Assembly: GCA_025499705.1 (NCBI GenBank)
Contig: JAFMVE010000030.1
Location: 1 to 64,000, forward strand
Source of the DNA: Carboxylicivirga caseinilyticus
Lineage (GTDB): Bacteria > Bacteroidota > Bacteroidia > Bacteroidales > Marinilabiliaceae
DNA length: 64,000 bases
Direction: 5' to 3'
This document shows, in pieces, positions 4,441 through 23,603 of the stretch (within the stretch, counting starts at the first letter, position 1; each line of letters begins with the position of its first letter). The notes under the pieces are model-generated. The model was not told the origin of the DNA and did not search any database. It saw only the letters and a program-made list of their open reading frames with translations. The translations under genes and the position numbers were made by a program.

Positions 4441-6678
4441 CTATCCAAAAATTGAGTAAGCAACAGTTAAACCGGCCATCACAACCGATACCATTGTCAT
4501 TAATTTAATTAAAATATTTAAAGAAGGTCCAGAAGTATCTTTAAATGGATCTCCCACTGTATCGCCGGTTACACCAGCTTTGTGAGCCTCACTTCCTTTG
4601 CCGCCATGATGTCCTTTTTCGATGTATTTTTTAGCATTATCCCATGCTCCACCGGCATTGTTTAACATTACAGCCAATGTAAATCCGGCTGTTAATCCTC
4701 CGGCCAATAAACCTACAACACCGGCAACACCCAAAACAAGTCCTACCAAAATAGGAACGATGATGGCCAGTAACGAAGGTACAATCATTTCACGTTGTGC
4801 TCCTTTGGTTGAAATAGCAACACACTTGGCATATTCTGGAGTACCTGTTCCATCCATGATTCCAACAATTTCTTTGAACTGACGACGAACTTCTTCAACC
4901 ATTGAGCCAGCTGCACGTCCAACAGCTTTCATGGTCATTGCACAAAAAACAAATGCCATCATAGCTCCCAGGAATAAACCACCCAGCAACATTGGATTGA
5001 ATAATGAAAGATCGTAGAATGAAACAAAATCTTTAATGTTGGCATCTGCATAAGATGTTAAGCCTGTTGCTTCCAAAAAAGCTTGTCCTTTTTCCGGCAC
5101 TTTACCAAGCCATAATCTGATTTCTTCCATATAAGCTGCTAAAAGAGCCATGGCAGTAAGAGCTGCAGAACCGATGGCAAAACCTTTACCCGTTGCAGCA
5201 GTAGTATTACCTAACATATCCAATGCGTCGGTACGTTCACGAACCTCTTTTGGAAGATGTGACATTTCAGCGTTACCACCCGCATTATCAGCAATCGGGC
5301 CAAAAGCATCGGTTGCCAATGTGATTCCTAATGTTGATAACATACCAACAGCAGCAAAACCAATACCATAAACACCTTCTGAGAAATTAGTAAAACCACC
5401 TGCAAAGCCAAATGCAGCAATAATACCAGCCACGATGGTAACAACCGGAATCCAGGTACTGAACATACCTACAGCAATACCATCGATAATGGTAGTAGCA
5501 TGGCCTTGTACAGCCTGTCCGGCAATACCTTGTGTTGGTTTGTACTCATCAGAAGTGTAATATTCTGTTCCCTGACCAATGATAACACCTGCTGCCAAAC
5601 CAGCAATTACAGATCCGAAAATACCCCAGGTAATCCAGTCCATATATGCCAAAATGGCTATTGCAATCAGAATAAGCACAGAACTTCCTCCTGTACCAAT
5701 CAATAGGGCGTTCAATAGATTCTTCTGAGTTGCCGATTCTTTGGTACGTACCATAAAAACCCCAACGATAGATAGAAGAATACCTATGGCAGCTACAATC
5801 ATAGGAGCCATCACCGCTTTTAACTGTAAATCACCTGTTAAACCAGGTAGTGCTGCTCCCAGAGCAGCAGTTGCTAATATCGAACCACAATACGATTCAT
5901 ATAAGTCGGCACCCATACCAGCCACATCACCCACGTTATCGCCAACATTATCAGCAATGGTTGCAGGGTTACGAGGATCATCTTCAGGTATTCCGGCTTC
6001 TACTTTACCTACAAGATCGGCACCAACGTCGGCAGCTTTTGTGTAAATACCTCCACCAACACGTGCAAATAATGCCTGAGTAGAAGCACCCATTCCAAAT
6101 GTCAGCATGGTGGCAGTAATTTCCACCATTTTATGATGTTCCGTTGTGCCGGCATGAACGAAGTCTAATCCCAGAAAACTGAATCCATTCACAAGATGAT
6201 CAGGGGTAAACACAATCTCGTTCAGGAAATAAAACCATAATGCAATATCTAATAATCCAAAACCTACAACTACCATTCCCATTACAGCACCACTTCGGAA
6301 TGCAACTTTTAATCCTCTGTTAAGAGAGTTGGATGCACCGTGAGCAGCACGGGCAGAAGCGTAAGTGGCAGTTTTCATGCCCAGATAACCACATAAACCT
6401 GAGAAGAAACCTCCTGTTAAAAAGGCAATGGGTACAAACGGATTTTGCACACCCATGTATGCCAACACACCTAAAAGAACTACCAATACAATAAAAACTT
6501 TTCCAACCACCTTGTATTGGCTCGAAAGGTACGCCATCGCTCCGTCACGCACATGTTGTGCAATTTCTTTCATTTTATCGGTACCCTCGGACTCTTTCAT
6601 CATTGATTTGAAGAATATCCAGGCAAAAATCAAAGCTATCAGCGATGATACTGGAATCAACCAAAAAATTGAACTCAT
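4441..6678 (-). CDS. hppA: K+-dependent membrane-bound pyrophosphatase (ion pump)
   Basis: Hydrolyses cytoplasmic pyrophosphate and uses the energy to pump H+ and/or Na+ across the inner membrane. The 745-residue, ~16-helix protein carries the family motifs DVGADLVGK (217-225) and the PPi/Mg-binding stretch from [12 protein letters not shown] to VGDNVGD (233-251). Residues 490-499 read [10 protein letters not shown]. Ala at 494 and Gly at 497 are the state of the K+-dependent subfamily; K+-independent pumps have Lys and Thr there. Whether H+, Na+ or both are moved cannot be decided here. It is a single gene with its own terminator and a structured upstream region. Confidence 0.95.
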
Positions 6679-15830: not shown

Positions 15831-18008
15831 ATGGCAAAGCAGGTTGATCTAAATGCTCAGTTAAAAAAGCATTTTGGGTTTGATACCTTTAAAGGGAATC
15901 AAGAGGACGTCATTAACAATGTATTAAAGGGAAATGATACATTTGTTTTGATGCCAACAGGAGGAGGTAAATCTCTGTGTTACCAACTTCCGGCACTCAT
16001 TCTACCCGGAACGGCAATTATTATATCGCCATTGATTGCTTTGATGAAGAATCAGGTTGATGCAATGAGAAACTTCAGTGAAGATAACGGTATTGCACAC
16101 TTTTTAAATTCGTCACTTACCAAAACTGCAATAAATCAGGTTAAAGAAGATATTCTTCAGGGCAAAACCAAGTTGTTATATGTAGCTCCCGAATCATTGA
16201 CAAAAGAAGAAAATATTGAGTTTCTGAAGCAGATTGATATTTCGTTCTATGCGGTTGATGAAGCCCATTGTATCTCAGAATGGGGTCATGATTTCCGACC
16301 TGAATATAGACGTATTCGTCCAATTATAAGTGAAATAGGCAACTCGCCACTTATGGCTCTGACAGCTACTGCAACACCTAAGGTGCAGAATGATATTCAG
16401 AAAAACCTGGGTATGCTTGATGCGATGGTTTTCAAATCATCCTTTAACAGACCCAATCTGTATTATGAGGTGAGACCTAAACTTCATCCATCAAAAGAAA
16501 TTATTAAGATTCTGAAGAATAATGTTGGAAAGTCGGCCATTATCTATTGTTTAAGCAGGAAGAAGGTGGAAGAACTGGCTGAGACATTAGTTGTTAATGG
16601 TATAAAAGCGCTTGCGTATCATGCCGGAATGGATGCTTCAACCAGGGCTAAGAATCAGGATATGTTTTTGATGGAGGAAACGGATGTAATAGTTGCGACT
16701 ATTGCTTTTGGAATGGGTATCGACAAACCCGATGTACGGATTGTGATGCACTATGATATTCCTAAAAGTCTGGAAGGTTATTACCAGGAAACAGGTCGTG
16801 CCGGACGTGATGGAGGTGAAGGAAGGTGTATTGCATTTTACAGCTATAAGGATATTCAGAAGCTGGAGAAATTTATGCAGGGAAAACCACTGGCAGAGCA
16901 GGAAATTGGTAAACAGTTATTGCTCGAAACAGTTTCTTATGCCGAATCATCTATCTGTCGTCGAAAAACACTCCTTCATTATTTTGGTGAGAAGTATCAC
17001 GAAGAAAACTGTGAGACCTGTGATAATTGTGTCAATCCTAAAGAGGAGTTTGAGGCTAAAGACAGTGTTGTAAAAGTTCTGAATACCATTGTTGAATTTA
17101 AAGAACGCTTTAAATCAGATCATATTATTAATATACTGATTGGAAATAATAATACAGCCGTAAAATCATATAAACACAACGAACATTCTTTGTTTGGTTC
17201 TGGTGATGAATTTGATGACAAGCACTGGAATGCTGTTATTCGACAATCGTTGGTGCGTGGTTTTATCATAAAAGATATCGAGACTTACGGTCTGTTACAT
17301 GTGAGTAAAAAAGGTCATGAGTTTCTGAAAAGTCCGGAATCAATCATGATGACAAAAGATCATGATTTTGATACCATTGAAGAAGAAACCAATACAGGTG
17401 GAACAGCAGCCGTTGATGATGCGTTGTTCTCAATGCTGAAGGATTTGAGAAAAAAGATCTCAAAGAAATTGAATCTTCCTCCTTTTGTCATCTTTCAGGA
17501 TCCTTCATTGGAAGCAATGTCGACCTATTATCCGGTAAGTATTGAAGAATTACAGAATATTCCGGGTGTAGGAACCGGTAAGGCTAATCGATTTGGTAAA
17601 GACTTTGTAAAACTGATTGCCGACCATGTTGATGAAAACGAAATTGATCGTCCAATGGATATGGTGGTAAAATCGGTTGCTAACAAATCGAAAATGAAGA
17701 TTAGCATTATTCAAAGTATCGACCGCCAAATGCCACTTGACGAAATTGCCTCGTCAAAGGGTATGGAGATGGATGAATTAATTAAGGAATTAGAATCAAT
17801 TGTTTATTCAGGAACCCGTGTCAATATCGATTACTACATTGATCAGGTAATGGACGAAGACATTAGCGATGATATATTTTACTACTTTAAAGAAGAGGCT
17901 GAAACAGATGAAATAGATGCGGCTCTTGAGGAATTAGGTGAAGACGCATATTCGGAAGAGAATATTCGATTAGTGCGAATAAAATTTATTTCTGAAGTTG
18001 GAAATTAA
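15831..18008 (+). CDS. recQ: ATP-dependent DNA helicase RecQ
   Basis: A 3'-5' superfamily 2 helicase acting in recombination and fork repair. The 725 residues have motif I TGGGKS (43-48), DEAH (143-146), motif VI QETGRAGRDG, the zinc-binding cysteines of the RQC region (CRRKTLLHYFGEKYHEENCETCDNC, cited here only as a family landmark), a winged helix and an HRDC-type domain around residues 520-600 (SIEELQNIPGVGTGKANRFG). A further ~100-residue acidic C-terminal region follows, making it longer than the 610-residue E. coli enzyme, as is usual for this phylum. Confidence 0.95.
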   Translation: MAKQVDLNAQLKKHFGFDTFKGNQEDVINNVLKGNDTFVLMPTGGGKSLCYQLPALILPGTAIIISPLIALMKNQVDAMRNFSEDNGIAHFLNSSLTKTAINQVKEDILQGKTKLLYVAPESLTKEENIEFLKQIDISFYAVDEAHCISEWGHDFRPEYRRIRPIISEIGNSPLMALTATATPKVQNDIQKNLGMLDAMVFKSSFNRPNLYYEVRPKLHPSKEIIKILKNNVGKSAIIYCLSRKKVEELAETLVVNGIKALAYHAGMDASTRAKNQDMFLMEETDVIVATIAFGMGIDKPDVRIVMHYDIPKSLEGYYQETGRAGRDGGEGRCIAFYSYKDIQKLEKFMQGKPLAEQEIGKQLLLETVSYAESSICRRKTLLHYFGEKYHEENCETCDNCVNPKEEFEAKDSVVKVLNTIVEFKERFKSDHIINILIGNNNTAVKSYKHNEHSLFGSGDEFDDKHWNAVIRQSLVRGFIIKDIETYGLLHVSKKGHEFLKSPESIMMTKDHDFDTIEEETNTGGTAAVDDALFSMLKDLRKKISKKLNLPPFVIFQDPSLEAMSTYYPVSIEELQNIPGVGTGKANRFGKDFVKLIADHVDENEIDRPMDMVVKSVANKSKMKISIIQSIDRQMPLDEIASSKGMEMDELIKELESIVYSGTRVNIDYYIDQVMDEDISDDIFYYFKEEAETDEIDAALEELGEDAYSEENIRLVRIKFISEVGN

Positions 18009-18071: not shown

Positions 18072-18218
18072 GAAATCATACATAACGCATAGTCACAAAG
18101 CATATTAATCCAAATCTATCCGTGTGATTATGTAAATACTCTTTGAGTCTGTGCAATAATTTAGAATTATTAACAAAGCAATTCTAACAATTTGTTATTA
18201 AAAGCTGCAATATTTATT

Positions 18219-18226
18219 TAAATTTG
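18219..18226 (+). promoter_or_regulatory. Candidate -7 element for the PEPCK-like gene
   Basis: TAAATTTG matches TAnnTTTG, 34-41 bases upstream of the ATG at 18260. TTTG at 18191-18194 lies 24 bases upstream, a little far for a -33 element. The position makes the in-frame TTG at 18224 impossible as a start if this promoter is used. Confidence 0.4.
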
Positions 18227-18259: not shown

Positions 18260-21200
18260 ATGAAAGATGATGTGCTTTTAAAGCAAAAACCCAGCAAGAA
18301 GGATAGGAAGGACATGATACAATACATCAACCTTCAGTTAGCATCGTTGGGGCAGCCCTTGTTTTACGACGAATCTGACGCTAAAACAAAATTCTCCAAC
18401 GCCAAGTTTCTATCACTTACTGAAGGGCTTATCAACAGTTTTAGAGAAAAATCACGTTTGTTATCAGACCACCTTTCCCCTGTTGATACACGCATTCAGA
18501 ATTTTCTTGATTCTTATCTGGCAGATGTCGAGTTTGATAATTCATTCCGACTACCAAACAAAACATTTGTATTAAACCAAAAAGGTTTGGCTCGCGAGGT
18601 GAGTTTACCTCCTAACAAAAATAGTTTTGAAAGTGAATTGGTTAAATCATACCGTGTAAAACAAGGTATCTTAAATAATCCGTTCAATGATAAAAGAACC
18701 ACAAAAGGTACTTTTCATATTGTAGAAGGAGGATTGCCTGTTCCACTTGATAAAAAAGAAGTGCCAAAAATAGCTTTTGCACACATGTTGCATGCAGCTA
18801 TGAATCCTTCAGAGGAGATGAATGTCCTGCCTTTTACAGCAATGCAGGAAGACAAAGCCAAAATAATGGTTTCTCTTTTGCTTCGTCCGGTTGTGTGCCC
18901 CGAAGTTAAAGGTGTAATCAGCGAAAAAAGTATGGAAGTACGCTTTTTCGCTCCTGGTAGTTTGGTGAGTAATCTTGATTTTGTTGAAAATATCTTCGGA
19001 AACGCAGGTGACCACAACTTAGCAGAAAATGACTCAGCTTTAGATATTGAACACTGGACAGGTACTACAGGATGTATCATTCTTGCACCTCAGTTAACGA
19101 AGCTGAAGAAAAAAGATATGGGTCTTCCACACTACGATGACGCTACAGAAAGACAGCGTAAAGATGGAATGTGTTGGAAAGATGCCGATGAATTATATAA
19201 CGAAGGAGGTGCTTTTAAAGTAACTTGTCGTGATGAACGTGGAGTTGTTGTAACGCTTATTGCAGATAACTACTACGGATATTCTAAAAAGGAAATTAAA
19301 ACCCAGATTGGTTATTCTGCCAATATTTATGGTTTGGTAGAAGAAGAGCATGCGGGTGGTGCCATTGCTTTTCCTCGTGGGATCATGGGTGAAAGTGTTT
19401 ATGGAGAATTATTCTCATCCAAATTAGGCCGGACTTATACATTCGAAGAGGCAAAAGCATTATTAGGCGATCGCATTGAGGTTAACACCGAAATGAACTA
19501 TGCGATTGATAAAAAATATCAGGATATTATCTACATACCTGAAAATGCTGATATTGATATTAATGCCAATAAAGTAAGTTGGGAATATAACGGAAAAGAG
19601 CAAAAGTTGAAATTGTCACCGGATAAATTTTATATCCATCCTTCAGGAAACAAATTTCAATTAGCAAAACATCCGGCTCAACCTTTGTGGAGAATTATCA
19701 ATACTGCTCCTGAAGGTATGTTCTGTCATAAACCATGTACTGTATCAGGTGGTGGTAAATCAGAAATCTCTAAATCAATGCAGAATGCCATTAAATATGG
19801 TACCTACAATATCGTTGATTTGGAAGAAGATTTTAAATTGGCCGACATGGTTATCGACTATGATTATTCGACCCGTTGGAAGGATATCAGACCTGATGCC
19901 AGTCCGTCTCGTCCATTATTAAGCCCTAAGCGTACATTGGGTTCTGCTGTTAAATTGTTAACTCCATCAGATCAATATAATGATGAATACAATAAATGGT
20001 TGACAGAGATTCCTGATCACATTCGTTCATTGGTACTGTTTCTTAAGAGATTGTACCGTAATGATCGTGAGCAAGGAAACTGGAAAGATTATATGTCAGT
20101 AGAGTTTATCAATGGCCGTAAAGGAACAACTTTATTGTACAAGCATAATAATGTATTAGCCAGCTATGTTCGTATTGGATTTGATCAGGAAGGAAACTGG
20201 TTATTACATAAATTGAGATCTGACTTTGTGCCTAGTCACAAGATACAGATGGAAGATGATATCTCTGCCTCAATTACATTGCCATCAAAGAGTCTGAAAG
20301 ATTTGAATCCGGAGTATTCAAACAAGAGTTTGAAAATGGTAGCCAACTGTGAGGCTCATCTTTTCCAACGTCCTGATGAGGCAATTCACAGAGGTTATGA
20401 TGTTGAAGCTGAAGCAGATATTGTTCAGGCCAACACGTTTCTAACCAATTATGAACCTTTAACTTATGAGGATGCGAAAGACTTATTAGAGGATGCGATT
20501 AGTTTTGAGCAATATACTCAGCCTGTTAAAGATCTGATTAAAGAGGTAGTTGAGTCTGGGAAAGATGGTTATTTTGTGGTTCCTTCACATCCTCGTATTG
20601 TAGATGGTGAGCCAACAAAAAATCCTCGTTACCTGCAAAGGAATATCTATACTGAGGAAACATTGGATAGCTATATGGCTGAAATAGGAATTCGTATGCA
20701 TCGCAAGATCAAGAACGAAGATCCGGTTATTTATCCTGTAAATGCTGTGCTTCCGGGTAGACGAAACAATCCGGCTGATCGTGCAGCAGGAATCAGACCT
20801 TTGGCTGTTTACAATCCAATTCACTACCAGGAGCTTCCTGAGTTGTTTATGGATTTCATCTGTAGCTTAACAGGTAAATCTCCTTCAACTACAGGAGCTG
20901 GATCAGAAGGTGCATTGACAAAAGGTCCGTTTAACATGTTGGTTCCAACATCTGACCTTAATAATGCATTGCTTTCTTATATTCTTACCGAATATCAGGG
21001 CTTCAGCTCTGCAGCAGGTTATGTGGGTGGCGAAAACAGATTTGACCATGACATCAGTATCCTGATTCCTGAAATCTGGGCACGTTTGGTACCGGAAGAC
21101 AGAGATCCTAAGACACTGATTGAAAATAAATGTCTTGAGAAACTGGAAGATTTCGAATACAATGGCGAGAAAGTATACGCAAGCCGTTTAGGTTACCGTA

Positions 21201-21739
21201 TTACCAAAAACTTTGCTTTCCGTTGTATGAACCGTTTGTTCGATGAACCTCTGGCTGTATTTAACGAGCATATGTTGAAACCAGAGAAGCAAAATATGGA
21301 AGATTTTGTGGATGGTATCAATAATATTGTTGAGGCTCAGAAGAAGGTTGCTCTAAGTTATTTTGAAGATGGAAGTGTTGATGGAGCCATTCCTCCGTTG
21401 AAGATTTTGCTTCACATTATGGCTTATGGCGAATATGAAGGAAAAGATATCAGTGATCCTGAATTGAGAAAGTATTTCGAACGTGATTATGTAATCAATA
21501 GTGATTGGTATAAAGCTCGTTTGAAGCACAAACAAGAGAAGGATGTGAAGTTCCATGCTGATCAGATTGCTTATCTTGAAGCTTTCAAAGCTAATCCGGA
21601 TAACAGTGCAATCATAGACGAAATGGATATTGAAACCCGTTTGAAACGTGCAAAAGAATTATTGGCACATGCATCATCTGATGCTTACCTTTCAGAATTG
21701 GAAGGAACTATTGGAGCTGATATTTTGTATACGAAATAA
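18260..21739 (+). CDS. Probable PPi-type phosphoenolpyruvate carboxykinase
   Basis: PPi-type PEPCK interconverts PEP + CO2 + phosphate with oxaloacetate + pyrophosphate and is a ~130-kDa cytoplasmic enzyme known from Entamoeba and Propionibacterium. This product, 1159 residues from the ATG at 18260, has that unusual size. It carries CTVSGGGKSEIS with K500, which aligns with the kinase-1a loop GLSGTGKT of ATP/GTP PEPCKs, and Gly/Pro-rich conserved stretches such as TGKSPSTTGAGSEG near residue 880. The N-terminus (INLQLASLG) also resembles the family as I recall it. No other domain family is evident. The gene is alone, with its own promoter candidate and a terminator. The assignment is from memory of the family and needs alignment. 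Confidence 0.7.
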   Translation: MKDDVLLKQKPSKKDRKDMIQYINLQLASLGQPLFYDESDAKTKFSNAKFLSLTEGLINSFREKSRLLSDHLSPVDTRIQNFLDSYLADVEFDNSFRLPNKTFVLNQKGLAREVSLPPNKNSFESELVKSYRVKQGILNNPFNDKRTTKGTFHIVEGGLPVPLDKKEVPKIAFAHMLHAAMNPSEEMNVLPFTAMQEDKAKIMVSLLLRPVVCPEVKGVISEKSMEVRFFAPGSLVSNLDFVENIFGNAGDHNLAENDSALDIEHWTGTTGCIILAPQLTKLKKKDMGLPHYDDATERQRKDGMCWKDADELYNEGGAFKVTCRDERGVVVTLIADNYYGYSKKEIKTQIGYSANIYGLVEEEHAGGAIAFPRGIMGESVYGELFSSKLGRTYTFEEAKALLGDRIEVNTEMNYAIDKKYQDIIYIPENADIDINANKVSWEYNGKEQKLKLSPDKFYIHPSGNKFQLAKHPAQPLWRIINTAPEGMFCHKPCTVSGGGKSEISKSMQNAIKYGTYNIVDLEEDFKLADMVIDYDYSTRWKDIRPDASPSRPLLSPKRTLGSAVKLLTPSDQYNDEYNKWLTEIPDHIRSLVLFLKRLYRNDREQGNWKDYMSVEFINGRKGTTLLYKHNNVLASYVRIGFDQEGNWLLHKLRSDFVPSHKIQMEDDISASITLPSKSLKDLNPEYSNKSLKMVANCEAHLFQRPDEAIHRGYDVEAEADIVQANTFLTNYEPLTYEDAKDLLEDAISFEQYTQPVKDLIKEVVESGKDGYFVVPSHPRIVDGEPTKNPRYLQRNIYTEETLDSYMAEIGIRMHRKIKNEDPVIYPVNAVLPGRRNNPADRAAGIRPLAVYNPIHYQELPELFMDFICSLTGKSPSTTGAGSEGALTKGPFNMLVPTSDLNNALLSYILTEYQGFSSAAGYVGGENRFDHDISILIPEIWARLVPEDRDPKTLIENKCLEKLEDFEYNGEKVYASRLGYRITKNFAFRCMNRLFDEPLAVFNEHMLKPEKQNMEDFVDGINNIVEAQKKVALSYFEDGSVDGAIPPLKILLHIMAYGEYEGKDISDPELRKYFERDYVINSDWYKARLKHKQEKDVKFHADQIAYLEAFKANPDNSAIIDEMDIETRLKRAKELLAHASSDAYLSELEGTIGADILYTK

Positions 21740-21762
21740 TTTACAATTGTTGAATAAAAACG

Positions 21763-21797
21763 AAGGCTACTCATTTTGAGTGGCCTTTTGTTTTTTA
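21763..21797 (+). terminator. Terminator of the PEPCK-like gene
   Basis: AAGGC-ACTC (21763-21772) pairs with GAGT-GCCTT (21778-21787) around ATTTT, followed by a T-rich run to 21797. It lies just before the stop of the convergent kinase gene. Confidence 0.8.
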
Positions 21798-23603
21798 AAG
21801 GGGTAATGAAATTCGAACGGTTGTGCCCATGCCCAATTCAGATTCAAAGAGTAACTGACCATTGTGTTCCTCAATAATCTTTTGAGTTATTGATAATCCT
21901 AAACCTGTTCCTTCACCCGATGGTTTGGTTGTGAAGAATGGCTCTGTTAATCGGTTAATATCCTCAGGGCTTATGCCTTTACCGCTATCAATAAAAACAA
22001 GCTGAACGTTATCATTATCAACTAATGTTTTAATAATAATCTTACCTTCTTTAGTAATAGCCTGAGCGGCATTATTTAGAATGTTGATTATAACCTGGTG
22101 CAGTTGCCCTTCGTTACCCGAAATAATAATAGGCTCATAATAGAATTGTCTTTCAATTTCAATTCTATGTTTTATTTTATTCGAAAGGATATTTAAACAG
22201 TTATCAATGATAGTATGAATATTGAAATGTTCTGTTTTCTCATTTTTTTGTCTGCTGAATTGATTTAAACTGGCTACAATATCTGCCGATCGGCTTACAC
22301 CTTCATTAATTGAATTCAGAAGAATGTTAATTTCTTCAGGTATGTCATTGTAATTGTCTTCAAAATAGGCTTCTAAACCTAATGAGCCGGCCTGTATGTA
22401 TTGTAAAGGACTGTTTACTTCGTGGGCTATGCCTGCTGACAAAACACCTAAGGTTGCCATTTTCTCCGACCTTAACAGTTTTTCATGAGCACTCTTTAAC
22501 TCTTCAAGAGTCGTTCTTAATTCCTCTTTTTGGTAAATCAGATCCCCGTTGATTCTCGTTAGTTCATCATTTGCCCGGTGCAAGGCAACAGTTCTTTCTT
22601 GTACTAAATCTTCCAGGCGGTTTCTGTAATTATCTAACTGTATTTGTATTTTTTTCTTTTCATCAATATCTCTAACAACAGCCAATAATTTGTTTTGACC
22701 AAGAATTCTGGCTTTTTTCATTGATACCTCTATCCAGAATGTTTCCCCATTTCTTTTGGTTGAAAGCCATTCGAAAACGGTACTTCCGTGTTCTATTACT
22801 TCCGTGAAATATTTTTTAACTTCCTCATAACCATATCCTTCTTTATTCTTATTCAGTTCTTTCCATTCTATAAACTGTATCTCTTCCCTTATATAACCAT
22901 ACATCTCTAGCATGGCATCGTTTACATCTTCAATATTTCCCTGGTAGTCCATTTTGAAGATAGCATCGGTTGATGAATTAAATATCTCGCGATAACTCTG
23001 TTCGCTAAATGTCAGGCTTCTGTTTTTTTGTTTCAGGTCTTGAAGCAGACGAAAAAAGGAAGTATTAAATTGCGTAAGGATAATTAAAATAGAAATGGAC
23101 ACAAATCCTAAAATCAAAAGGGCCAGAATCCATGTCTGTATATGAGAGTATCGTTCAAGGTCGATATCTCTTACGGAGAGATAACCACTAACGTGTAACA
23201 GACCCAATAAAACGATGGCGGCAATGGTACTTAAAAAGATAATAACAGAATGTTTAAGGCTAAATGCCATGGTTGAAAAGAAGGGTACCATGATAATCAA
23301 TGGCAGATACTCTGAATAAATTCCTAGCCAGGCAACATGAAGTATAACAACTGTTATCAGTGCAAATATCAGAATGGACGATTTAATTTTCAGGCTGAGC
23401 CTTTTCCTAAATATGGCTACTGATATTGCAAGAGATAACGTAAATGTATTTACTATGTAATTCAGTTTATTAAAATAGTTTGGCACATCGCTAAAGCTAA
23501 GCGCAAAAGCGGTAGCATACATCAATCCCCCAACAACCAATGAAATGTTTACAATTCGGTTTTTAAGAGAATCAATCCCGATATTTGATTCTTGTCTCCC
23601 CAT
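21795..23603 (-). CDS. Membrane PAS-domain sensor histidine kinase
   Basis: A 602-residue kinase. About five or six membrane segments fill residues 15-180. A PAS domain (~205-315, SYREIFNSSTDAIFKMD) and a coiled coil (~320-385) follow, then the H-box GIAHEVNSPLQY with H394. The catalytic ATPase domain has an N-box (INILNNAAQAI), G1 (DSGKGIS) and G2 (GTGLGLSI). All kinase motifs look intact. No receiver or response regulator gene is adjacent, so it is an orphan kinase whose partner is elsewhere. The membrane part may sense a membrane or small-molecule signal, but the ligand is unknown. It has its own promoter candidate. Confidence 0.9.
   Translation of the reverse strand: MGRQESNIGIDSLKNRIVNISLVVGGLMYATAFALSFSDVPNYFNKLNYIVNTFTLSLAISVAIFRKRLSLKIKSSILIFALITVVILHVAWLGIYSEYLPLIIMVPFFSTMAFSLKHSVIIFLSTIAAIVLLGLLHVSGYLSVRDIDLERYSHIQTWILALLILGFVSISILIILTQFNTSFFRLLQDLKQKNRSLTFSEQSYREIFNSSTDAIFKMDYQGNIEDVNDAMLEMYGYIREEIQFIEWKELNKNKEGYGYEEVKKYFTEVIEHGSTVFEWLSTKRNGETFWIEVSMKKARILGQNKLLAVVRDIDEKKKIQIQLDNYRNRLEDLVQERTVALHRANDELTRINGDLIYQKEELRTTLEELKSAHEKLLRSEKMATLGVLSAGIAHEVNSPLQYIQAGSLGLEAYFEDNYNDIPEEINILLNSINEGVSRSADIVASLNQFSRQKNEKTEHFNIHTIIDNCLNILSNKIKHRIEIERQFYYEPIIISGNEGQLHQVIINILNNAAQAITKEGKIIIKTLVDNDNVQLVFIDSGKGISPEDINRLTEPFFTTKPSGEGTGLGLSITQKIIEEHNGQLLFESELGMGTTVRISLPL

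Follow-up and report, generated by a model that had tools for sequence, protein, structure and literature searches.

A predicted pyrophosphate-type phosphoenolpyruvate carboxykinase encoded alongside an ATP-dependent enzyme in Carboxylicivirga caseinilyticus

A stretch of 64,000 nucleotides from Carboxylicivirga caseinilyticus (contig JAFMVE010000030.1, positions 1 to 64,000; hereafter, the window) carries, at 18260..21739 on the forward strand, a gene whose product is by homology a clear member of the pyrophosphate (PPi)-type phosphoenolpyruvate (PEP) carboxykinases (PPi-PEPCK, EC 4.1.1.38; also PEP carboxytransphosphorylase). The same genome (5.65 Mb, 145 contigs) also encodes a full-length ATP-PEPCK (C123:113762-115168), which matched TIGR00224 with 849 bits against a cut-off of 590; a second PF01293 match, on C134, stayed under the cut-off, and no GTP-PEPCK was found in the genome. 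An earlier note on this DNA had proposed that the PEP-oxaloacetate node uses PPi rather than ATP or GTP. This fails here, since with an ATP-PEPCK present ATP is not supplanted by the PPi enzyme, and at the gene level the right wording is PPi as well as ATP. Taking the evidence jointly, we consider it very likely that a working PPi-PEPCK stands beside the ATP-PEPCK as an added PPi-coupled route, the ATP-PEPCK having probably been regained. According to one review (PMC8100219, which, like the other papers cited below by PMC number, is drawn on in part), the majority of organisms that carry the PPi enzyme have a classical PEPCK too.

The ATG-started frame is translated into 1159 residues; a longer frame opening with TTG at 18224, 36 bases upstream of the ATG, would add 12 residues, giving 1171. 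The gene is present in the genome as a single copy with an open frame. When the protein was compared with the PDB sequences (phmmer, E up to 1), only two matches were obtained, the solved PPi-PEPCKs 6k31, "AiPEPCK" (1064 bits, query residues 25-1153), and 8e1u, "PPi-dependent PEPCK" (1037 bits, residues 15-1153). A profile of 33 family members, namely, the query plus 32 sequences hand-picked from 75 loci in named genomes (51 to 91% identical to the query), again retrieved 6k31 and 8e1u only, with 1433 and 1425 bits, respectively, at E up to 10; the underlying alignment contained 213 invariant columns. The length of the protein was in agreement with those of the solved chains (1153 and 1131 residues), the ATP-PEPCK of the same genome being about half as long (542 residues). 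Thus, the identity and unusual size proposed in the earlier note were borne out, and translation confirmed the 1159-residue protein with T494-V-S-G-G-G-K-S-E502 at the positions it had given.

We take 6k31 to come from Actinomyces israelii, an actinobacterium, and 8e1u from Propionibacterium freudenreichii, of a phylum other than that of the query. The match to the former is nearly full length, with TVSGGGKSEISKS identical in both, and the match to the latter is near end to end, with the same loop; unlike AiPEPCK, the query is a Bacteroidota enzyme, and it is found beside an ATP-PEPCK. The nearest gene from a named genome belongs to Carboxylicivirga linearis (locus L050); it is 91% identical to the query and pairs with it in the tree (support 100/100), and recQ adjoins the gene in both. 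G155, the genome that carries a gene at the same coordinates as L050, has no ATP-PEPCK match, unlike that of C. caseinilyticus.

None of the 33 family members matched any Pfam-A or NCBIfam model at E up to 0.01, so that PPi-PEPCK genes are easy to overlook; the warning that they are easily annotated as hypothetical was well founded. At E up to 1, the query gave one unrelated match under the cut-off in Pfam (S-methyl_trans) and three in NCBIfam, likewise under the cut-off, all at chance level. The same Pfam scan returned no match to PF01293, PF00821 or PF17297. Hence, although its loop partly resembles the GLSGTGKT of ATP-PEPCKs, the suggestion that the query is itself a classical ATP- or GTP-dependent PEPCK is practically out of the question: no family model matched, the ATP-PEPCK of the genome is a separate gene, and profile comparison with ATP-PEPCKs detected no similarity (see below). 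We rejected it as contradicted at the sequence level.

Each residue of the loop TVSGGGKSE (residues 494-502; 19739..19765, forward strand), including K500, which the earlier note had singled out for alignment, was identical in 33 of 33 sequences, and the loop is also present in both solved sequences. Judging from characterized members, this presumed phosphate-binding loop, with K500, most likely holds phosphate or PPi. Strict Walker A motifs and the ATP-PEPCK loop GLSGTGKT have G or A at the first position, whereas the query loop starts with T, and "P-loop-like" is therefore an apt description. A second strongly conserved stretch, GKSPSTTGAGSEGALTKGPFN (residues 872-892; 20873..20935, forward strand), nearly matches the loop in conservation, with 18 of its 21 positions identical in all 33 sequences, and includes a GKS of its own.

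The ATP-PEPCK (PF01293) of this genome belongs to the same metabolic node and, like the query, has a short loop ending in G-K-S/T, but no profile similarity between the two could be detected. Thus, hhalign of the 33 PPi-PEPCKs against ten ATP-PEPCKs, the PEPCK type covered by this comparison, gave a probability of 2.5% and aligned residues other than the loop. This counts against equating the loop with GLSGTGKT and against likeness to ATP-PEPCKs, as weak evidence, because both alignments were shallow (Neff 2.4 and 1.6). Published opinion on this kinship differs: the review mentioned above regards the PPi-type enzymes as evolutionarily unrelated to other PEPCKs (PMC8100219), whereas a solved PPi-PEPCK (Chiba et al. 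2019, cited in PMC10441589) is described as similar to other PEPCKs in three dimensions, supporting homology.

Among 71 genomes of the family Marinilabiliaceae, a PPi-PEPCK match was present in 56 (those of G168, G174, G189 and G203 being partial or broken) and an ATP-PEPCK match in 50 (those of G151, G203, G209, G210 and G212 being partial). Both were present in 40 genomes, PPi-PEPCK alone in 16, ATP-PEPCK alone in 10 and neither in 5, of which 4 were under 90% complete. The fifth, G149, is 99% complete and has a PEP carboxylase, with no match to a PPi-, ATP- or GTP-PEPCK. In G168, which has no ATP-PEPCK match, the PPi-PEPCK lies in four pieces (C157:3172-6544), reflecting either a decayed gene or sequencing errors, and this genome may thus have no working PEPCK.

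Within the genus, PPi-PEPCK was found in 14 of 14 genomes and ATP-PEPCK in 12; the two members with no ATP-PEPCK match, G155 (91%) and G166 (89%, one contig), are those closest to the query by PPi-PEPCK identity. In the neighbouring genus g148, the corresponding figures were 9 and 2 of 9. An ATP-PEPCK of g148, in G198 (C47:5771-7159; L104), is very different from that of C. caseinilyticus (48% identical); with the enzyme missing from 7 of the 9 genomes of this genus, it appears to have been gained separately. Across the order, in a sample of 149 genomes, no ATP-PEPCK passed the cut-off in 8 of the 14 genomes with a long PPi-PEPCK match versus 19 of the 135 others (Fisher p 6e-4, for genomes that are not independent by descent); G130, with a 44-residue piece only, was counted as being without PPi-PEPCK, and G012, whose ATP-PEPCK was under the cut-off, as lacking the latter. 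Mutual exclusion of the two enzymes is not claimed, given that 40 of the 71 family genomes have both and given the shared descent of the order-level genomes.

The ATP-PEPCK of C. caseinilyticus appears to be out of place. It lies (L089:4944-6572) between susC-like and glycoside hydrolase genes, as labelled from reading the proteins. In G155 and G166, 144 bases separate the glycoside hydrolase gene (87% identical) from the gene after it, which in C. caseinilyticus has its counterpart (81% identical) 9.4 kb further on. Thus, neither genome has at that place the 9.4-kb segment (L137; C123:105992-115406) that holds the ATP-PEPCK along with susC/susD-like genes. Among the other 11 genus members that carry the gene, its neighbours differed from those in C. 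caseinilyticus in 8 whose surroundings were examined. In a 43-row tree, the C. caseinilyticus ATP-PEPCK paired with the gene of G196, from genus g148 (support 100/99), and in a 35-row tree a constraint placing it with nine genus rows was rejected (approximately unbiased [AU] test, p 1.6e-4). The constraint with all eleven genus rows was rejected too (2.8e-6), but the other genus rows did not form a clade even without this gene; since the constrained groups were chosen with the first tree already in view, these p values are too small.

From this distribution, site and tree we infer a direction of events in which ATP-PEPCK was probably lost in an ancestor and regained here by transfer on the inserted segment. 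Alternatively, the segment was possibly lost in both sisters, G155 and G166, which would leave the tree position of the ATP-PEPCK unexplained. With regain by transfer, the genus would have kept PPi-PEPCK throughout while ATP-PEPCK came and went. A broader proposal, which we regard as doubtful, makes PPi-PEPCK the permanent enzyme in this part of the Marinilabiliaceae and ATP-PEPCK an optional one, repeatedly lost and regained by transfer, so that about 16 of the 71 family genomes, the closest sisters included, may run oxaloacetate-PEP exchange on PPi alone, coupled through a membrane pyrophosphatase to an ion gradient. For Entamoeba, the lack of any PEPCK besides the PPi type is reported (PMC8100219), and the comparison reaches only that far.

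By analogy with characterized members, the enzyme would catalyze the reaction PEP + CO2 + inorganic phosphate <-> oxaloacetate + PPi and would constitute an additional, PPi-coupled link from PEP to oxaloacetate and back, beside ATP-PEPCK. The genome encodes other enzymes that bear on this proposal. A membrane-bound ion-pumping pyrophosphatase of 745 residues (4441..6678, reverse strand; PF03030, 877 bits) lies 11.6 kb from the PPi-PEPCK gene, on the opposite strand; it passed the cut-offs of both a "sodium-translocating" model (NF001954; 1012 bits against 894) and an "H(+)-translocating" one (TIGR01104; 764 bits against 652). A PPi-dependent phosphofructokinase (PPi-PFK; TIGR02477, 858 bits, cut-off 588) and a pyruvate phosphate dikinase (PPDK; TIGR01828, 1334 bits, cut-off 843) are also encoded, together with an ATP-PFK passing its model cut-off and a PEP carboxylase whose match consists of two pieces inside one 855-residue frame. 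The membrane pyrophosphatase of this cell could interconvert PPi and an ion gradient. Two adjacent PFK-family genes, L082 and L083 (C62:39581-41860), are encoded on opposite strands and each carry GGDD, a motif that marks PPi enzymes among PFKs; one of the pair is the PPi-PFK by model, and L082 is PFK-like and passes no model cut-off.

For the main direction of flux, two proposals can be made. In the carboxylating direction, which we would put close to an even chance, the enzyme would form oxaloacetate from PEP by CO2 fixation and save PPi for PPi-PFK, PPDK or the ion pump. Such use of PPi-PEPCK is known in propionic acid bacteria, and the three PPi-consuming partners are all encoded in this genome. 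A CO2-fixing, anaplerotic role has also been given to the methanotroph enzyme (PMC6860931; flux model of PMC5802761), but the former paper also invokes it for the conversion of malate to PEP. Moreover, the PEP carboxylase of C. caseinilyticus already covers the step from PEP to oxaloacetate, and a soluble pyrophosphatase is present on the same contig (73146-73664). The opposite, gluconeogenic direction, with PPi driving the conversion of oxaloacetate to PEP, most clearly in relatives without ATP-PEPCK, seems to us a real possibility that we would not favour outright. In accordance with it, a PEP carboxylase match was present in 15 of the 16 family genomes with PPi-PEPCK but no ATP-PEPCK match, so that the carboxylating direction is already served there. 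This association is, however, confounded by descent, as 9 of the 16 genomes belong to genera g1 and g148, where all genomes searched have a PEP carboxylase, and PPDK, seen in the genome of C. caseinilyticus only, could make PEP from pyruvate instead. It is very unlikely that the protein has diverged to a different donor or to a regulatory function and is not a working PPi-PEPCK. No biochemistry on a Bacteroidota member was found in the open literature examined, as far as the parts drawn on go, and the three PPi-PEPCK genes of Entamoeba (PMC8100219) suggest that members may specialize. On the other hand, C. caseinilyticus has one copy, the 213 invariant columns extend over sequences from several phyla, and PPi-PEPCK is the only one of the three kinds of PEPCK found in certain near-complete genomes, among them G166 with its single contig.

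Several observations weigh against a working PPi-PEPCK as a lasting, PPi-coupled component of this metabolism. The soluble pyrophosphatase would drain PPi, and the neighbours of the gene are not conserved beyond the genus group, which leaves no operon evidence. For their part, 15 of the 71 family genomes have no PPi-PEPCK match, and the family enzymes, partial ones aside, form two sets, 66 to 91% and 54 to 57% identical to the query; taken together, this means that PPi-PEPCK itself may have moved. The second set (54 to 57%; G143, G150, G151, G182-G187 and G199) could stem from either an old duplication or a transfer. The hhalign result described above belongs here too, with the weight already stated.

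Upstream of the gene, after a gap of 251 bases, lies recQ (15831..18008, forward strand; TIGR01389, 676 bits, over the cut-off), and downstream a convergent gene (21795..23603, reverse strand) for a sensor histidine kinase, all of whose matches to histidine kinase models were below their own cut-offs. Between the latter and the PPi-PEPCK gene, the terminator scan located an intrinsic-terminator-like stem of 12 pairs followed by a T run (21762..21788, forward strand), which suggests that the transcript ends there; four such sites were found in the window against 2.5 (sd 1.6) expected from shuffles, a weak excess by number. Given this stem, the convergent next gene and the distance from recQ, the gene is probably transcribed alone. 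A weak promoter-like element, TAAATTTG (18219..18226, forward strand), was read from the sequence, with TTTG at 18191-18194 at a somewhat long spacing; it fits the Bacteroidota -7 consensus TAnnTTTG. The sigma-70 scan gave no forward-strand site near it, and its 10 sites were no excess over the 13.1 expected from shuffles.

To assess the neighbourhood, 75 loci, with flanks of up to 6 kb, were searched for 13 neighbours from the window; 48 of the 75 hold at least 15 kb. recQ stood beside PPi-PEPCK in 11 of the 75, all from genus g1 by coordinates and one only a piece at a contig end, and outside g1 only weak matches to the lptB query were found (27 to 30% identity, in L015, L020 and L024). An operon or conserved neighbourhood was consequently rejected. 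Among the 14 genus genomes, the membrane pyrophosphatase and PPi-PEPCK genes lie within about 12 kb in 5, on one contig 64 to 108 kb apart in 2 and on different contigs in 7. Their linkage was discarded as a functional signal, the close cases being read as shared synteny.

Beyond the family, five Flavobacteriaceae enzymes, from a Lutibacter bin, Polaribacter, Hyunsoonleella, Flavivirga and Algibacter (L026, L027, L030, L034 and L037), fell inside the Marinilabiliaceae/Bacteroidales clade of a 35-row PPi-PEPCK tree (support 97/94). This nesting suggests that the gene may have been transferred between orders of Bacteroidota. Other rows came from bins named Spirochaetota, Planctomycetota, Pseudomonadota, Chlorobiota, Fibrobacteres and Cytophagales; the homologue scan used query peptides, and distant members (Actinobacteria and eukaryotes) are outside the set.

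The PPi-PEPCK family is known from Propionibacterium, Entamoeba and methanotrophs (PMC8100219, PMC6860931 and PMC5802761). In the open literature, which leaves most subscription papers uncovered, no paper linking Carboxylicivirga to PPi-PEPCK was found among the matches listed, and none of the PPi-PEPCK papers concerned Bacteroidota by title; in the parts drawn on, one paper touching on Bacteroidetes and PPi (PMC10199937) mentions a PPi-dependent phosphofructokinase and not PPi-PEPCK. The query is an ordinary, clear member, in an interesting context, of a family that is known but poorly catalogued. Since these enzymes are missed by Pfam and NCBIfam, genome-based metabolic models of these Bacteroidota could show a central node as a gap, or as costing ATP, although PPi may be consumed or produced there by the cell. 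Close relatives with and without ATP-PEPCK offer a natural comparison for what PPi buys such a cell.

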